DNA from: Thermoproteales archaeon
GTDB lineage: Archaea > Thermoproteota > Thermoprotei > Thermofilales > B69-G16
Direction of reading: 5' to 3'
Length of the DNA: 32,183 nt
Assembly: GCA_021161825.1 (NCBI GenBank)
Contig: JAGGZW010000086.1
Coordinates: 1 to 32,183, forward strand
Both the position numbers and the translations under genes were made by a program. Position 1 is the first letter of the stretch. Every line of letters begins with the position of its first letter. The notes beneath the pieces were generated by a model. It ran no database searches. It had not been told where the DNA came from and worked only from the letters and a program-made list of their open reading frames with translations. This document shows, in pieces, positions 3 to 30,276 of the stretch.

Positions 3-677
3 GGTTGTCGTGGTTTGGATGGTTTATTGGGTGGCGGCGTTGAAACAGGCGCTATCACAGAATTTGTAGGCGAATTCGCAACAGGAAAAACACAAATAGC
101 ACACCAACTAGCAGTAACAGTACAACTGCCTTTGAAGAAGAAGGGCTTAAATGCTAAGGCTATATTCATCGATACTGAGGGTACTTTTAGGCCTGAACGC
201 ATCATACAAATAGCAGAATATAGAGGATTAAACCCAGAAAAAACACTAAAAAACATCCTATACGCAAGAGCATACACAAGCGAGGAACTCCTATTCTTTA
301 TATATAAAGCAGTGCTTTATCTAGAAAATAATGTTGGATTGGTAGTTATAGATACTTTAACAAGTCTTAATATTGAAATTTTATCCAAAGAAAAGAGAGC
401 AGCATACGAGTCTTTAATAATTTACATGATGCTTCGCTTATTAGAGGCAGCTTTAGCAAAAAAAGTTGCGATCGTTATAACTAACCGTGGCTTTATGCGC
501 GGCGAAAATTTCTGGGTTATCGGAGATCCTCAAATTAGCATGCTTTCATCTTTACGCGTACATCTTGAAAAACAGCCTGGAGGTGCTTGGACAGCAAAAA
601 CTTTATATTCTCCACATGGAAAACGCCGTGTTTGTAGATTTCGGATAACTGAGAAAGGTCTCGAAGATTTAGCTTAA
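3..677 (+). CDS. RadA/Rad51-family ATPase paralog, 5' end outside the window
   Basis: RecA-fold ATPase of the RadA family, open at the left window edge: the frame runs from base 3 and residues before the first TTG (base 15) still match RadA, so the HhH domain and true start lie upstream. The first half is close to canonical RadA, with the LGGG turn, a complete Walker A (GEFATGKT) and the IDTEGTFRPERI segment, followed by a Walker B-like LVVID. The second half diverges. The arginine-rich L1 loop is replaced, TNQV has become TNRG, and the GG.I.AHA stretch of the L2/ATP-cap region is absent. It keeps an FRITEKGL end as in RadA. An ATP-binding recombination mediator or Rad51 paralog fits better than the main strand-exchange recombinase. 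A second RadA-family gene lies at 28269-29237. RqcH follows after 10 bases. Confidence 0.8.
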   Translation, partial: GCRGLDGLLGGGVETGAITEFVGEFATGKTQIAHQLAVTVQLPLKKKGLNAKAIFIDTEGTFRPERIIQIAEYRGLNPEKTLKNILYARAYTSEELLFFIYKAVLYLENNVGLVVIDTLTSLNIEILSKEKRAAYESLIIYMMLRLLEAALAKKVAIVITNRGFMRGENFWVIGDPQISMLSSLRVHLEKQPGGAWTAKTLYSPHGKRRVCRFRITEKGLEDLA

Positions 678-10680: not shown

Positions 10681-11858
10681 AGATAAGCCTTACAGAACTT
10701 TACGCTCGTAGGGAATTATTGCGAAATGAGCTAGCCATTAAAATAGGCAAAGAGTCGATCAGCAAGGCTATCAACGATTATCATGCAAAAAGGAAACCTA
10801 GGCCTTGTGGGATAACTGTCCACAGTGTTATTGGATGTTCCTCAGGATGCATATATTGCTACATACCTGATATGGGGTTTAGCAACCTGCATCCAATGCC
10901 GTATGGTTTAACTAAGGAAGAACTGGTTCTCTCGCTTCTTTCTAATAAATATTTCTTCCCTACAGTAAAAGGAACATACTTAGCTTTCGGAAGCATTGGC
11001 GAACCATTTCACCCTGTTGGTATATTAAAAACCACATCTTATCTAGAAGCTGTCACGTCTTTTCTAGGCAATCCAATTCAGGTCTCTACAAAAATGAAGA
11101 TAGCAAGCGAAGCCTATCCTAGGCTAGGAAGATTAAAAACTTATCCAGTTAACATATTGGTAACTATAGTGTCTCTAAAATATGCAGAAATTCTAGAGCC
11201 CAGTGCACCAAGCCCCGAACAAAGATTCAATGTTATTAGAAATCTTAAAGATGAGGGTTTTAAACCAATCCTGTTCTTCAGACCAGTTATACCAGGCGTA
11301 AACGAGGAAGAAGCTGAAGAAATTTTCGAAAAAGCTAGAGAAAGTGGCGCAGTAGGAGTCGTGATTGGCGGTTTTAGAATAACAAGGAGAATACTATCTA
11401 ATCTGAGGAGAGCAGGCATTGACATTTCAGATATAAAAAACAGGATAAAAACAAGGCCGAACGGGCAAACGCCAGTATACACCAATGACATAAAGCAGAA
11501 GCTTGTTGAAATCAGTCGAGAAAAAAACCTTATACCATTTCTCTCAGCATGCTGTGCCAACACGTATAATATAATGGCAACTACGGGGTTAAGAATACCA
11601 TGCGCAAACTTATGCTTCATAAATAAAAAATTCTGTACTAACTGTCCAGTAAATTGTAAAAATATCAAAATAGAAGTTGACGAGGAAGAATTTAAAAATT
11701 CATTCTATAGAATGCTCAACGTTAAACCTGATGAAGTCAATGTTAAACAACACTCTATCAATGTTCAAGTTAAAAAACGTAAACGTAGATTATTGAGACG
11801 TAAAGCCATAATCAAAACAATGGAGAGTATATATAGGAAAAAAATTATAGTCGATTAA
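10677..11858 (+). CDS. Radical SAM protein with cysteine-rich C-terminal region
   Basis: Radical SAM enzyme of 393 residues. The [4Fe-4S] motif is C54-x3-C58-x2-C61 (GCSSGCIYCY), followed by FGSIGEPFHP, which fills the SAM-binding GE motif, and a TIM-barrel core to about residue 260. The layout resembles the SplB-like/Rv2578c group more than elongator or tRNA-modifying families. Residues 285-330 hold seven cysteines (CC, CANLC, FCTNCPVNC), enough for an auxiliary Fe-S cluster. The last 40 residues are strongly basic (KKRKRRLLRRK), which suggests binding to nucleic acid. It overlaps the KaiC-like gene and is followed after 1 base by a DUF504 RNA-end-binding protein, so an RNA substrate is a reasonable idea. 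Confidence 0.8.
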   Translation: MKISLTELYARRELLRNELAIKIGKESISKAINDYHAKRKPRPCGITVHSVIGCSSGCIYCYIPDMGFSNLHPMPYGLTKEELVLSLLSNKYFFPTVKGTYLAFGSIGEPFHPVGILKTTSYLEAVTSFLGNPIQVSTKMKIASEAYPRLGRLKTYPVNILVTIVSLKYAEILEPSAPSPEQRFNVIRNLKDEGFKPILFFRPVIPGVNEEEAEEIFEKARESGAVGVVIGGFRITRRILSNLRRAGIDISDIKNRIKTRPNGQTPVYTNDIKQKLVEISREKNLIPFLSACCANTYNIMATTGLRIPCANLCFINKKFCTNCPVNCKNIKIEVDEEEFKNSFYRMLNVKPDEVNVKQHSINVQVKKRKRRLLRRKAIIKTMESIYRKKIIVD

Positions 11859-24950: not shown

Positions 24951-25051
24951 TATATTATCATATACGCTCCGTTAATATGAAGTGTTCGCACACGTGCATG
25001 CGCATTCACATGCAACATGACCTTTTATTATTCTAAAACTAAATTGTATCG
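24951..25051. promoter_or_regulatory. Divergent promoter, RNA methyltransferase operon / recombination-like operon
   Basis: On the plus strand CTTTTATTAT (25022-25031) lies about 25 bases before ATG 25052. On the minus strand a CATATTAAC-type box (about 24973-24981) lies about 27 bases before ATG 24950. Between them is a block (24983-25018) with much higher GC than its flanks and many CATG/GCAT words, including a 16-base palindrome. Confidence 0.5.
24994..25009. promoter_or_regulatory. 16-base near-perfect palindrome, operator candidate
   Basis: GTGCATGCGCATTCAC is its own reverse complement at 14 of 16 positions (the mismatch is one symmetric pair). It sits about 12 bases from each TATA candidate of the divergent promoters. 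This upstream position would suit a dimeric regulator acting on both operons. Confidence 0.45.
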
Positions 25052-25705
25052 ATGAAAATGCGTTTAAGCAAGATACTAGTCTATGGCATTGGCCTGCTGA
25101 TAATATACCACTTTTCACGCATATTAACAATTATCATATTAGTTGTAGTAGGCCTACGCTACCTCTTCCATCTATACAAAAAGAGCGATAAAATGCATAA
25201 AATATACGATTATGTAGCGAGAAAACTTAGGCTATTGTCATTAAATAAGAATCTTAAAAAGCTACTAAATCCTCTGAGCAGAGCAGAAATAAGTCTTGTC
25301 AAGTTGAGAAGTTTTTACAGAATATATCGCTGTTCGAATGATGCGATTTTTGTTGCGATTAACGGGTTTAAAATTACATTATTTACTATAATAAAAATAC
25401 ATCTCGATCCGAACAAAATAAGTTGCGCAGATTTTATCGGCAGTCTTTACCAGCTGCTATCAAGACAAATAGACGGTTTTAAGATAGTAATTAATGAATT
25501 TGATAGACAAGAGATTTACCTAATATTATCTACGTCAAAATATGCGCAGGCTATAACCCAAAAACTGCTAGTTGATATGGAAGACAAAATCGATAAAATC
25601 AGAAGTTCTTTTGCATATCTTCTATCCTCTCCTAGAATGTTAGAGAATATTCTAAGTGTAGACGTTTTGAGAAATGAAGATATTTTTGAGGTGATAATTG
25701 CTTGA
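25052..25705 (+). CDS. Small membrane-anchored protein, first gene of the recombination-like operon
   Basis: 217 residues, no family recognised. Residues 7-40 are strongly hydrophobic (ILVYGIGLLIIYHF, ILTIIILVVVGLRYLF), enough for one long or two short membrane segments, followed by a positive stretch KKSDKMHK. The soluble part (about 70-217) has alternating strands and helices, such as DAIFVAINGFKITLFTIIKI and GFKIVINEFDRQEIYLIL, then helices. The pattern loosely recalls the N-terminal region of VirB4/HerA-like transfer ATPases, which precedes their motor domain. The next gene, overlapping by 4 bases (TTGA), looks like the motor domain without its Walker A, so the two may be halves of one decayed or split system. 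Function unknown. Confidence 0.6.
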   Translation: MKMRLSKILVYGIGLLIIYHFSRILTIIILVVVGLRYLFHLYKKSDKMHKIYDYVARKLRLLSLNKNLKKLLNPLSRAEISLVKLRSFYRIYRCSNDAIFVAINGFKITLFTIIKIHLDPNKISCADFIGSLYQLLSRQIDGFKIVINEFDRQEIYLILSTSKYAQAITQKLLVDMEDKIDKIRSSFAYLLSSPRMLENILSVDVLRNEDIFEVIIA

Positions 25706-26847
25706 GAAAGGGAAACTTCGAAATAAACAAGTGTTCTTTGGATAACGTAGATTTTAAAGGCAATATCCTAATCACCGGAAACTTGAGCCTTCAGGCATTA
25801 GTAAACGTTTTATTGTATGAAAAAATAGAAAAAATATTAGTTTTAGACATAGATGGAAAAATAGAAAGTTTGTTCAAGGCTTCCGGATTGGATATAAGAT
25901 ATGTTGATGCGGCTTATTTACTAAAAGAGCTCCTATATTCAAAAAACTCTATGTATTTTTCAGATCTCGTCGAAATAGCTAGGTTATCGTTTAATGTAAG
26001 TTTGCCAGCGGCCTTTATGGGAATAGAAGCTTTAAGCAGCAATACAGCGGAAGCTATTGAAGTAATTCATAGTGAAAACATATACTTAGAGGCCAAATAC
26101 ATCATTAGAGCATTAACCTCGCTATTAAACTCGCTAACATATGATGTTGACGAAAACGAAGCTTTATTGATTTTATCTCTTAAAAACCTATCTCCAAGCC
26201 TATTACATTTCATGTTTTTTGTATTCTTAATATATTTTTCGGTAAAGGTAAAGGAAACAACGGCAGCGATTCCGGTGGAAATAATGAAAGAAATCAAGCA
26301 TAGAAACCTCGTTTTCTTGATGACTAGAAAGTTGTTAAACGTAAGTGATATTGTATTTTTTGGGAGTTATCTAGGTGATTTACTTAAAGAGTTATTGCTA
26401 GAAATCGATATAGCAGTAATATCGGGTAAGGCATTTTCTGAGGATATCAACATTATAGGAGAAAGATTCCCCTGCGTCAACGAGATTAGAAAATTATTAG
26501 AACTCGGCGAAGATATGGTCATTTGCACTGATAACAAGGTGTACATTATAGAAGATTTTATTAAGATTTCTGAAAAATGTCCCCCTATTAGCTACGAATC
26601 TTATGAATGTAATTTTTCCGACAACATCAACATTCAGGAAGTTAAAAAAATACTGAACTTGGTAAACTTATCACCAGTAACTAAGGACGAGTTAATAATC
26701 TACTTGAAAAATTGCAACTGGACCGAACCTTTGAAAATTATCGATGAACTACTTTTAAACAAATTTATCGAAGAAATTCTTGGAAGAGATGGCAACTACT
26801 GGCTTAGAATTACTCCAAGAGGACGATTATTCCTGAAGGTGAGGTAA
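25702..26847 (+). CDS. P-loop-ATPase-like protein without Walker A, winged-helix end
   Basis: 381 residues, not matched to a named family. The start NILITGNLSLQALVNVLLY resembles the strand-loop-helix of a HerA/FtsK/VirB4 P-loop, but the GK[ST] is missing (GNLSLQAL). ILVLDIDGKIESLF then parallels HerA's second strand (VLDxHGE). A later LVFLMTRKLLNVSDIVFFGSYL is in the place of the sensor strand and IxxQxP region. Residues 315-380 form a winged helix (LSPVTKDELIIYL; LRITPRGRLFL). I infer a pseudo-ATPase or structural partner. TTG start, with GAGGTGAT (25688-25695) 6 bases upstream. The following gene starts right after the stop. The HerA link is tentative. Confidence 0.55.
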   Translation: MRKGNFEINKCSLDNVDFKGNILITGNLSLQALVNVLLYEKIEKILVLDIDGKIESLFKASGLDIRYVDAAYLLKELLYSKNSMYFSDLVEIARLSFNVSLPAAFMGIEALSSNTAEAIEVIHSENIYLEAKYIIRALTSLLNSLTYDVDENEALLILSLKNLSPSLLHFMFFVFLIYFSVKVKETTAAIPVEIMKEIKHRNLVFLMTRKLLNVSDIVFFGSYLGDLLKELLLEIDIAVISGKAFSEDINIIGERFPCVNEIRKLLELGEDMVICTDNKVYIIEDFIKISEKCPPISYESYECNFSDNINIQEVKKILNLVNLSPVTKDELIIYLKNCNWTEPLKIIDELLLNKFIEEILGRDGNYWLRITPRGRLFLKVR

Positions 26848-27816
26848 ATGGCTGAAATAGGATTGTGTATAGGTTATAAATTACCTTTATTGAAATCAAC
26901 GGTATATCTTTTACCTTCTGGGCAAAACCCATTGCCTTCAAACTTTCCATCAACTTATTTACCGATAATCTTAAAAAGTATCGAATTGGATGGTTGGTTA
27001 ACTAAAAGAGATGTAAATAATATTTTAGAAATATTTGTAGATGATATAGATAGCGAAACTGTAGATTTTAGGCATCTAGAATCGTATTGGGGCGAGCCGT
27101 TCAGAACGATAAGAGGATATTTCTATGGAAAAAATTTCATAACAAGTAAAAAATATGATGCAGATAACGTTGTAAGCTATTGGATAGCACCCTGTTTCGC
27201 GACTCTCTCAATTGTAATGGCCATAATCCTGTCAGATAGAAGCCTGCTTATTGCTTGGATTGACATGCTAAATGAAGCGCAAAAAAGATACATAAAAAAT
27301 TTAGTTATGGTAAGAACTAGACGCTACTGGCTGTGCGCGTTAGAGAATTATGATGATCTGCTCGCGTTATCGAGTGATCTTATAGCACCATCTAACATGG
27401 AATTAAAGAGTAGAATAAGAATTTCTAGAGCATACCTTGCCGATACTGACGAGGAGGCACTCATAATTTTTACAAGAAAAAACGATATATGGATTCCGAA
27501 AGGTAAATTAAAAACTATAAATATAACTGGAGGACCTGTCGTAAAATCGCCTAGTAAAATTTCATACTTAAATTTAGTGTTCGGTCAAGATAGCGAGCTT
27601 GTACACAGCCTACTAGATGAATTATTGAATAACATGCCGTTATCAGTACCTGTTTTTATTAGTATATTGAAGGAATACTTTAATGATATAGGAAAAGCTG
27701 GAAGAATTTATTCTAAAATGCTTACTTTGCGCTTGATAAAAATTGTCCAAGCACATTTGTATATAACCGAAAAGGGTGTTAAATGGTATGAAAATTATAA
27801 AAAATCGAATAGTTGA
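26848..27816 (+). CDS. Orphan protein with winged-helix-like C-terminus
   Basis: 322 residues with no recognisable family. The first 120 residues contain FRHLESYWGEPFRTIRGYFY. A hydrophobic patch at about 113-140 (IAPCFATLSIVMAIILSDRS) could be a buried helix or a weak membrane segment. The last 70 residues (LLDELLNNMPLSVPVFISIL through LYITEKGVKWYENYK) look like a winged helix, as in the preceding gene, whose end reads ITPRGRLFLK; the two may be distant paralogs or share a partner. ATG abuts the previous stop; GGTGAGG is the Shine-Dalgarno. Its 3' end overlaps the SWIM gene by 29 bases. Confidence 0.55.
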   Translation: MAEIGLCIGYKLPLLKSTVYLLPSGQNPLPSNFPSTYLPIILKSIELDGWLTKRDVNNILEIFVDDIDSETVDFRHLESYWGEPFRTIRGYFYGKNFITSKKYDADNVVSYWIAPCFATLSIVMAIILSDRSLLIAWIDMLNEAQKRYIKNLVMVRTRRYWLCALENYDDLLALSSDLIAPSNMELKSRIRISRAYLADTDEEALIIFTRKNDIWIPKGKLKTINITGGPVVKSPSKISYLNLVFGQDSELVHSLLDELLNNMPLSVPVFISILKEYFNDIGKAGRIYSKMLTLRLIKIVQAHLYITEKGVKWYENYKKSNS

Positions 27817-28276
27817 ATTTAATAAAATTAAAAAAATAGCATATACTATTATAAAATCTACAGATTTGCTAGATATTCGAGATTTAGAAAATGAAGTAAG
27901 AAAAATGGCTTATGAGCATAAGATAGATTATAAAAAGTTGCTAATGCTGGCGTTATCTATTGAAAAATTAAAGAGAAAATTTCCTAACAAAAGTTCCTCA
28001 TGGATTTTGAGAGCAGCTATAAGAGTTATGATTGGGATACTTCCGCTCAGCAGTAATGCTTGGAAAGTTCCAGGATTGATGGAGTTAAATGACTACTATA
28101 GCTGGTATTATGTAAGATTTGACAATGCAGTATCTGTCTATAAGTGTGACTGCTATTATCACGCTTGGGGTTTCTACAGGAAATATAAAGTCTGTACTCA
28201 CGTTGCGGCTGTCTTAGTTTTTAAAGAAATGAATCGCTTGATGTCTGAATATTTAAAAGGTGATATTTTTGAATGA
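27788..28276 (+). CDS. SWIM zinc-finger protein, Shu2/SWS1-like
   Basis: 162 residues. The C-terminal SWIM motif is complete: Cys120-x-Cys122, 13 residues, Cys136-x-His138, followed by Ala141, i.e. CxC...CxHxxA. The extra alanine is the hallmark that separates the Shu2/SWS1 family from other SWIM proteins. Eukaryotic SWS1 pairs with a Rad51 paralog (SWSAP1 or Psy3/Csm2) to support Rad51 filaments. The first 100 residues are helical and basic. ATG 27788 is preferred over GTG 27776, because GGGTGTT lies just ahead. The next gene, overlapping by 8 bases, is a RadA-family ATPase, the partner this family would need. Confidence 0.8.
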   Translation: MKIIKNRIVEFNKIKKIAYTIIKSTDLLDIRDLENEVRKMAYEHKIDYKKLLMLALSIEKLKRKFPNKSSSWILRAAIRVMIGILPLSSNAWKVPGLMELNDYYSWYYVRFDNAVSVYKCDCYYHAWGFYRKYKVCTHVAAVLVFKEMNRLMSEYLKGDIFE

Positions 28277-29237
28277 AGATGTAGAACAAAACAAAATTTC
28301 CGGTTTGCTTAAGTATCCTGGGATAGGCAAGATAACTATTCAAAAGCTCGAAAAAGCTGGGATATTAAACATTAACGATCTGCTTCTGTTCAATCCGGAG
28401 GAAATAATGGAAAAAGCAGATATAGATATCGAAAAAGCATTACATATCTTAAAGTTGGCTCGGCGAATCCTTGGAAGACAACCTAAAGTTTTAAAAGCAA
28501 TTGAATATGAACAGGTCATGAATTCCCGAGAGTTTATAACTACCGGAGTAGCCTCTATTGATTCTATGCTTGGAGGTGGAATCTTTGTATGGGATATCTA
28601 CGAGTTTGCTGGTGAATACGGTAGCGGTAAAACACAGCTATGTCATCAATTAGCTGTAGCAGTACAACTATCACGTGAAAAGGGCGGACTTGAGAGCGCA
28701 AGCATTTATATAGACACAGAAGGAACTTTCAGCCCTAAAAGGATACGAGATATTGCACGAAAGTTTAAGCTGAATGTGAGAAATGTGTTAGAGAACATCT
28801 TCGTTTTCAGGCCAATAAACGTGAGCGAGTTAGAGGATGTAGTTACGGGAGAAATTAGAGATATTGTTAGAAACTGCGTAAAGCTTGTTATAGTTGATAG
28901 TATTATAGCGCTATATAGAGCCGAGTTTAAGGGAAGAGAGTGGCTTGCAAGGCGTCAACAACGTATAAATTATCTCATAGACTGGCTTAAAAGATACGCT
29001 CACATGTATAACATTGCAGTTGTTTATACAAACCAAGTTTTAAGCCAACCCGTCCCCTGGGGTGCAACTTTGAAAATACCGGCAGGTGGTAATATTATAG
29101 CGCATGCTGCAACCCATAGATTTATCCTCAGATCCTTGAAGGAAAAATGGCATATTGAATGTATCGATAGCCCTAGAATTCCCAAAGGTTCTGAAGCTTG
29201 CTTTAAAATAACCGGGAAAGGTTTGGAGGATATTTAG
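28269..29237 (+). CDS. radA: RadA-family recombinase or Rad51 paralog with VxxA in place of FxxA
   Basis: 322 residues, close to full RadA layout. N-terminal HhH domain (YPGIGKITIQKLEKAG, about 16-31), linker, then the RecA core with Walker A GEYGSGKT (115-122), YIDTEGTFSPKRI, Walker B KLVIVD (205-210), an L1 loop keeping ARRQQRIN, TNQVLSQ, and GGNIIAHAATHRF. It ends DSPRIPKGSEACFKITGKGLEDI. Aligned without gaps to the linker of canonical RadA, the polymerisation motif FxxA reads V74-L-K-A77: the phenylalanine that plugs into the neighbour is lost. That suggests altered self-assembly. TTG 28269 is chosen over GTG 28260, because AGGTGAT (28257-28263) overlaps the latter and is 5 bases from the former. 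It lies between SWIM and nuclease genes. Confidence 0.85.
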   Translation: MNEDVEQNKISGLLKYPGIGKITIQKLEKAGILNINDLLLFNPEEIMEKADIDIEKALHILKLARRILGRQPKVLKAIEYEQVMNSREFITTGVASIDSMLGGGIFVWDIYEFAGEYGSGKTQLCHQLAVAVQLSREKGGLESASIYIDTEGTFSPKRIRDIARKFKLNVRNVLENIFVFRPINVSELEDVVTGEIRDIVRNCVKLVIVDSIIALYRAEFKGREWLARRQQRINYLIDWLKRYAHMYNIAVVYTNQVLSQPVPWGATLKIPAGGNIIAHAATHRFILRSLKEKWHIECIDSPRIPKGSEACFKITGKGLEDI

Positions 29238-29750
29238 ATGAACTGTCTGAAAAAAATTAGGGAAGCCATTGAAAATTTAGAAATCGCGAGAAGTAGCAAG
29301 AATGCCTATACTGTTACGAAAATTGCAAGATCTTTAGCCAGTAGTCGTAGTCATGGAGTAGGGGCAGATAGAGGCAGGAAAGTTCACAATTTCTGGGGTG
29401 ATCCTTTTGAAATTGCTAGAAACAGTGAATATTTGTGTCCCTTTCCGCTTGCTTGTAAAATAAATGATTGCTGGATATATGGTTATGCGGATTTAATACG
29501 ATTTTGCAACTGCAAACCCGTAGAGGTTATAGAGGTAAAAAGTTACAGCGGGTATTGTAGATATGATGAAATACAGGTTATAATTTATGCTTTTTTAGCA
29601 TACAAGCTTTTCCGCTTGAAAAGTAAACCTAAAGCGTTTTTAGTACTTGGATGGGATGGAAGAAATTTTGTTACAAAGCAGCTTGTAAGCTGGGAACCTG
29701 ACAAAGTCTTTTCTATGATAATACAAGCTATTAACAAAAATATTAAATAG
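29238..29750 (+). CDS. PD-(D/E)XK nuclease, RecB/Cas4-like
   Basis: 170 residues, a small RecB-type nuclease. The motifs are in the right order: G46-x3-H50 (GRKVH), Asp85 in YGYADLI, Glu99-x-Lys101 in VIEVKSYS, and Gln113-x3-Tyr117 (QVIIY). These are the metal-binding and catalytic residues of the Cas4/RecB/AddB group. Ten or so cysteines are scattered (CPFPLAC, FCNCK, YCRY), but the typical Cas4 C-terminal three-cysteine cluster is missing, so an Fe-S cluster is doubtful. GGAGGAT is the Shine-Dalgarno, and ATG abuts the RadA stop. An end-processing nuclease in a recombination operon fits. It is the last gene of the six. Confidence 0.8.
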   Translation: MNCLKKIREAIENLEIARSSKNAYTVTKIARSLASSRSHGVGADRGRKVHNFWGDPFEIARNSEYLCPFPLACKINDCWIYGYADLIRFCNCKPVEVIEVKSYSGYCRYDEIQVIIYAFLAYKLFRLKSKPKAFLVLGWDGRNFVTKQLVSWEPDKVFSMIIQAINKNIK

Positions 29751-29772: not shown

Positions 29773-30276
29773 ATGTCTGAAATAGAATTCGATGAGAAAA
29801 CGCTGAAAATTGCTGGTGAAAAAATTCGTATGGAGATTTTAAAAATTCTAAATAAAAAGAAGACTATTTCTATAAATGAGTTGTCGAAAATTATGGGTAA
29901 ACATAGGTCGACGATTAACAGGCACTTATTAAAACTTGTTGAAGTCGGTTTGGTTGATAGAACCGAAGTTGTAAAAGGATCGTTCGTTTATTCTTTATCG
30001 TCTAAGGGTTTAGCGCTGATAGAACATGTAGAAAAATATGGCATCATGCCGGAAGTTAGAGTAGAAATATTAAAAGAGCGTAGATTACCGCGAATTATAA
30101 AATCAATCTTTAAATTGGTAATGTATACAATACCGGTCATATTTTTTGTCATAGGAATCGCTGGTCTAGTGGCACAAGCGGAGGTTAGGTTTTTATCAAG
30201 AATTATATGGTTTTTACTGTTTGCCTTTATTTCCGTAACATCATTTTTAATATTTAGGAAGGTTTTTAAATACTGA
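29773..30276 (+). CDS. Winged-helix regulator with C-terminal membrane segments
   Basis: 167 residues. An ArsR-like winged helix covers about 10-85 (IRMEILKILNKKKTISINEL, HRSTINRHLLKLVEVGLVDR, VYSLSSKGLALIEH). Two hydrophobic stretches follow, about 117-137 (LVMYTIPVIFFVIGIAGLV) and 144-163 (IIWFLLFAFISVTSFLIF), so the DNA-binding domain would be held at the membrane. A TATA-like ATTAAATAG about 27 bases upstream suggests its own leaderless transcript rather than readthrough from the operon. Its 3' end overlaps the convergent gene by 11 bases, and that gene has the same kind of architecture. Signal and targets are unknown. Confidence 0.75.
   Translation: MSEIEFDEKTLKIAGEKIRMEILKILNKKKTISINELSKIMGKHRSTINRHLLKLVEVGLVDRTEVVKGSFVYSLSSKGLALIEHVEKYGIMPEVRVEILKERRLPRIIKSIFKLVMYTIPVIFFVIGIAGLVAQAEVRFLSRIIWFLLFAFISVTSFLIFRKVFKY

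Follow-up and report, generated by a model that had tools for sequence, protein, structure and literature searches.

The Shu complex of eukaryotes is formed by SWS1/Shu2 together with Rad51 paralogs such as SWSAP1 or Csm2-Psy3, and mediators of this type are known mainly from eukaryotes. The extended motif that marks Shu2/SWS1 proteins reads CxC...CxHxxA (PMC6316741). Among the archaeal DNA-exchange systems, the published Ted loci contain HerA, ParA and a protein named "Rad50", which is said to coat ssDNA (PMC9905601, PMC11868833); the text of the Ted paper mentions neither RadA nor SWIM, and we suspect that this "Rad50" is a RadA paralog. A search of the open-access literature, which left most subscription journals outside its reach, returned no earlier description of an archaeal SWIM-RadA system, and the six-gene unit reported here resembles the eukaryotic Shu complex in kind and seems not to have been described from archaea before, its novelty being provisional. 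The likeness lies in the combination of a CxC...CxHxxA SWIM protein with a RadA/Rad51 paralog, the canonical recombinase being encoded separately. Conversely, the archaeal partner retains the full RadA architecture with its HhH domain, and the operon further encodes a nuclease, a membrane protein and a pseudo-ATPase resembling HerA.

The window, i.e., the whole stretch of DNA that was analysed, is an entire 32-kb contig (C86) belonging to a 1.67-Mb MAG of a heat-loving archaeon, the closest named relatives being MAGs of Thermofilaceae/Thermofilales. The interval 25052-29750 holds six closely packed open reading frames, A to F, all on the + strand (Table 1), in line with the overlapping or abutting same-direction genes of the preliminary description. 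Specifically, A and B overlap by 4 bases, D and E by 17, and both B/C and E/F abut; C and D overlap by 41 bases as called, or by 29 if D starts at an internal ATG. The true start of D may be this ATG, at 27788. A gene for a winged-helix membrane protein follows on the same strand at 29773, 22 bases past F. Upstream of A, about 50 bases are strongly kept in a congener (locus L176) despite the far diverged protein genes; this block reads TGTTCGCACAYGTGCRTG...TTTTAT, and TTTTATTA lies ~25 bases ahead of the ATG of A. On the basis of TTTTATTA and the conserved block, a single promoter for all six genes is plausible. The TGTTCGCACAYGTGCRTG core is present in one copy per genome in host and congener alike, with no mismatches allowed, and the absence of a second such copy from either genome led us to reject the block as a regulon site. 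An Rfam search gave no match.

Table 1. Positions in the window of the six genes and of the conserved upstream block
Feature	Coordinates	Strand	Description
Conserved upstream block	24978..25030	.	Between divergent rRNA methyltransferase-like gene and A; candidate operator/promoter
A	25052..25705	+	217-aa membrane-anchored protein, N-terminal TM then soluble domain
B	25702..26847	+	381-aa HerA/VirB4-fold protein, no Walker A, C-terminal winged helix
C	26848..27816	+	322-aa orphan, winged-helix-like C-terminus
D	27776..28276	+	SWIM protein, CxC...CxHxxA, Shu2/SWS1-type motif
E	28260..29237	+	RadA paralog, N-terminal HhH domain, "DWL" clade
F	29238..29750	+	Small PD-(D/E)XK (RecB/Cas4-type) nuclease, active-site residues conserved

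The host genome encodes a canonical RadA on contig C54 and an ordinary run of NurA-like, HerA, Mre11 and Rad50 genes on contig C58 (read from the sequence, HerA by profile), so that the six-gene set is an addition to a normal recombination machinery. A further RadA-like gene, truncated by the contig end, lies at window positions 15-677; it belongs to a separate divergent RadA branch that is also represented in the congener.

The assignment of E to the RadA-family ATPases is borne out by a match to the Rad51 profile at 3.8e-64 and by an intact Walker A (GEYGSGKTQ). In a maximum-likelihood tree (quick search), E falls within a paralog clade of 41 rows (SH-aLRT 99), apart from the canonical RadA of the same genomes, with several long-branch rows unsure and the L139 protein landing just outside the clade. 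The clade has in common the motif RQQRxNYxxDWL and retains Walker A. The phenylalanine of the FxxA motif, kept in canonical RadAs, is V/A/I or similar in the paralog clade; at this position, E reads VLKA and the canonical RadA of its own host FITA. The FxxA motif mediates RadA/Rad51 polymerisation, and E, having lost this phenylalanine, should therefore not form filaments alone, whereas it could still contact canonical RadA. Like RadB and aRadC, E is a second RadA-type gene alongside the canonical one. Its distinguishing marks are a conserved HhH N-domain, a complete core and a DWL clade of its own with a link to SWIM; on E, RadB models score far below RadA models. A plasmid origin was rejected, as the plasmid matches are haloarchaeal RadA-type genes only 29-37% identical, and so was a phage origin, as PHROGs gave generic recombinases for E and nothing else, and relatives were absent from viral contigs.

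D carries the CxC...CxHxxA motif, which is invariant across 11/11 relatives and agrees with the Shu2/SWS1 type proposed for this SWIM protein. It has no significant Pfam match, and one phmmer query against PDB sequences found nothing up to E 10, so that this single query detected no kinship to Shu2/SWS1 beyond the motif. The proposed pairing of SWIM and RadA paralog recurs in a neighbourhood survey: among the 56 Thermoproteia genomes with a SWIM match, 18 have a SWIM gene ≤3 kb from a RadA-family gene, against 0.95 expected from random placement (P about 1e-20, a value inflated by kinship among the genomes; positions collated by hand). The 18 genomes span about ten genera and eight families, and in two of them the RadA may be canonical. 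Numerous Thermofilum SWIM genes are not close to RadA, and SWIM genes away from RadA also occur in many genomes. Judging from these neighbourhoods, the SWIM-RadA pair is ancient and widespread.

F displays the H...D...ExK...QxxxY pattern of the PD-(D/E)XK nucleases of RecB/Cas4 type, as foreseen in the preliminary description, and its residues H50, D85, E99, K101, Q113 and Y117 are invariant (5/5). Family models respond weakly (Cas4, E 0.046, from one homologue); a Pfam search gave no match, and so no NurA domain, the NurA gene being on another contig, and a comparison with PDB sequences returned nothing. Members of the F family occur in 16 Thermofilales genomes (E 7e-39 or better) and, as a partial gene, in one more, and at most of these loci the gene lies directly 3' of an E-type RadA, so that the E-F pair recurs in Thermofilales.

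The first three genes also correspond to what had been outlined for them, i.e., a membrane protein, a P-loop-like protein without Walker A and an orphan with a winged-helix-like end. A has a single strong N-terminal TM segment (residues 15-33), which resembles that of the TM-anchored VirB4-like proteins in relatives. Profile searches of A gave nothing over the cut-off, and hhalign against single VirB4/HerA proteins detected no kinship to the VirB4 N-domain. By the A family profile, relatives possessing B always have A adjoining, with A-B pairs at L176, L199/L138 and L139 and a partial A at L074. For B, an AlphaFold model of moderate confidence (pLDDT 67, alignment of 4 rows) yields 51 Foldseek matches in the PDB at E≤0.001 (best E 3e-6), the best 50 of which are all HerA, VirB4, TrwB, FtsK-type or related translocases, with Sulfolobus HerA and defence HerAs among the top ones; TM-scores are just ~0.4, supporting the fold family and not the detail. 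Moreover, the B homologue at L139 matches HerA DUF87 (E 4e-4) and reaches the family cut-off in another profile search. Profile searches of window proteins gave nothing over the cut-off for B and C, and the hhalign comparison of B with single VirB4/HerA proteins was in register and not significant. The Walker A P-loop is missing from B, in its own sequence and in the alignment, and B is predicted to be a dead ATPase or platform. The AlphaFold model of C shows a helix-strand, winged-helix-like domain in the C-terminal third, the remainder being modelled poorly; relatives of C are clear in 3 genomes plus L194, with weak ones in Thermofilales.

The congener G002 (Thermofilaceae S146; L037/L176), a second species, has all six genes in unchanged order, upstream of the same divergent rRNA-methyltransferase-like gene, in a stable chromosomal neighbourhood shared with the window. 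Protein identity between the two ranges from 26% (B) to 70% (E), with synonymous sites saturated or nearly so, and the retention of order at this distance excludes chance. In a third congener (G001, 83% complete), the search found no B, C, D or F, nor a clade-type E. In other relatives, the genes recur in smaller combinations with small orphan genes (X, X3, Y and Z, Z being in some a C2H2-type zinc finger): A-B-X-RadA-SWIM-Y-Z in G003 (L074/L200) and G061 (L138/L199), A-B-X-RadA in G029 (L139), A-like-C-X-RadA-SWIM-Z in G006/B15_G2 (L194, L232), C-SWIM-F beside Z-X3-RadA in G003 (L055/L181), and X3-RadA-F in Thermofilum (L109-L116, L183). Thus, Thermofilum has the E-F pair but no A-D, the A-B-X-E-D sets lack C and F, and one genome has C-D-F apart from E. 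Because E+D, E+F and A-B+E-D recur separately, the six genes form no fixed module; by the refuting condition set in the preliminary description, they are a combination of recurring sub-modules particular to this lineage, and the view of them as one single system is not supported.

The genomic contexts in relatives vary by lineage, linking the SWIM-RadA pair in some to resection genes and in others to loci for DNA exchange. In G061/B15_G16, a single run on one strand reads nurA-herA-mre11-rad50-A-B-X-RadA-SWIM-Y-Z. The f9 genomes hold a multi-copy locus with ParA, a TM VirB4/HerA-type ATPase, a Walker A-bearing HerA-like ATPase, SWIM, Y, RadA and a pilin matching the TedC structure of P. calidifontis (PDB 8DFT, E 2e-10); from this content and the TedC match, it is a Ted locus, and L233 has similar content. 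Thermofilum G004 has a TM VirB4-like ATPase ahead of RadA-F-zinc finger; ParB, pilin-like genes and an ATPase of secretion type lie near, and SWIM adjoins a HerA-like ATPase close to this locus; in G003, ParB-like and T2SSE-ATPase genes adjoin C-SWIM-F. A second G061 cluster (L235) encodes a divergent RadA-like protein (387 aa), a HerA/TraG-like ATPase, SWIM and pilin-like genes. The link to Ced-type transfer suggested earlier therefore stands for relatives, whose Ted loci combine a TedB-like ATPase and a TedC pilin homologue with SWIM, RadA paralog and HerA-like ATPase, and whose pilus/VirB4/ParB loci in Thermofilales point the same way; for the window the resemblance is the HerA/VirB4 fold modelled for B. 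The window itself differs in lacking pilin, TedA/CedA and active VirB4; it contains no pilus, T4SS or membrane secretion gene, and the VirB2-like pilin, VirB6-like channel and VirB4-like ATPase found at relatives' loci were not found in it.

Starting from the observed gene content, folds or motifs, clade and neighbourhoods, we favour, with a probability of roughly 55%, a RadA mediator of Shu type that brings along a nuclease, is held at the membrane by an inactive ATPase of the HerA/VirB4 type, and works on single strands produced by resection or import. The lack of B, C, D, F and a clade-type E in G001 and the absence of defence-system matches for A-D and F are counted in its favour. E would bind ATP without self-polymerising, owing to the lost FxxA phenylalanine, and with its SWIM partner D would bind the canonical RadA, whose gene lies on another contig, nucleating, capping or stabilising RadA filaments on single-stranded DNA. 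F would trim DNA ends or flaps for this E-D mediator, A and B may be split, ATP-dead kin of membrane-anchored HerA/VirB4-type translocases that act as a tether or adaptor, either at the membrane or bound to the HerA machinery, and C may be a winged-helix DNA-binding adaptor. The putative substrates are strands from HerA-NurA-Mre11-Rad50 resection or from cell-to-cell DNA exchange, the latter proposed from the occurrence of such genes in the Ted and pilus/VirB4 loci of relatives. The missing pilus and secretion genes of the window count against the Shu-like mediator, as does the fact that no DNA-exchange locus was identified in the host genome. Also on the negative side are the SWIM genes away from RadA, the Shu2/SWS1 kinship that the phmmer query did not extend beyond the motif, the moderate confidence of the B model and the VirB4 kinship of A that hhalign did not detect. 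A wider version is put forward tentatively: an ancient RadA-paralog/SWIM mediator, functional and perhaps ancestral counterpart of Shu, might sit at the membrane end of archaeal DNA-exchange machines and load RadA onto incoming single strands, the Thermofilales form having been remodelled to include a nuclease of its own and an inactive tether of HerA/VirB4 type. The archaeal pair provides a named gene set for testing how Ced/Ted-transferred strands enter recombination, and bears on the origin of Rad51 paralog-SWIM complexes.

The same absence of pilus and T4SS genes suits a possible, clearly less probable account, in which the genes are a general accessory of chromosomal double-strand-break repair downstream of HerA-NurA-Mre11-Rad50, without any tie to import and with an incidental membrane part. 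The joining of these genes to nurA-herA-mre11-rad50 in G061, the stable neighbourhood shared by the window and L176 and the canonical set in the same genome point this way; the conserved membrane protein A and the recurrence of the pair in Ted and pilus/VirB4 contexts of other families do not. The six genes do resemble the HerA-NurA-Mre11-Rad50 operon in having a HerA-fold protein and a nuclease beside a recombinase-type protein, and in G061 the two gene sets are physically joined, but B is predicted to be an inactive ATPase, F is a PD-(D/E)XK enzyme rather than NurA, and the host has the canonical set as well.

HerA-nuclease pairs are common in defence systems, and the defence HerAs among the top structural matches to B would accord with an anti-element function, in which a HerA-like ATPase and the PD-(D/E)XK nuclease attack incoming DNA and the RadA paralog acts as sensor. 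This is improbable given that B has no Walker A, that PADLOC gave no match for A-D and F and a weak one for E, and that the genes are tightly linked to RadA/SWIM and resection genes; the patchy presence among relatives fits defence and non-defence readings alike. That unrelated genes were stacked by chance in a compact genome is the least credible account: the six are not always together, but the A-B, D-E and E-F pairs each recur in distant lineages, and the neighbourhood counts contradict it.

Some minor features accompany the RadA paralogs and SWIM genes of relatives. Small proteins encoded beside RadA paralogs, of C2H2 zinc finger or of winged-helix type and otherwise unlike, have the C-terminal tail NPWxxVL in common (L074 3781-4149, L138 10026-10523, L108 8264-8635, L055 8935-9300, L110 5628-6011), which is possibly a docking peptide. 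SWIM genes are multiplied in the Thermofilum genomes G011 and G015 (11 and 26 matches, many broken), and two copies lie in a 77%-identical repeat beside a 465-500 aa gene that has, by eye, the look of a TnpB/OrfB-type transposon protein; the sites of multiplied or repeated SWIM genes include L047 7696-8100 and L073 around 11342-11840, besides G011 and G015. Lastly, the HerA of G061 (L252 3816-5900) bears a SWIM-like cysteine/histidine pattern at its end (CSACRHSIQPCVHVLA).
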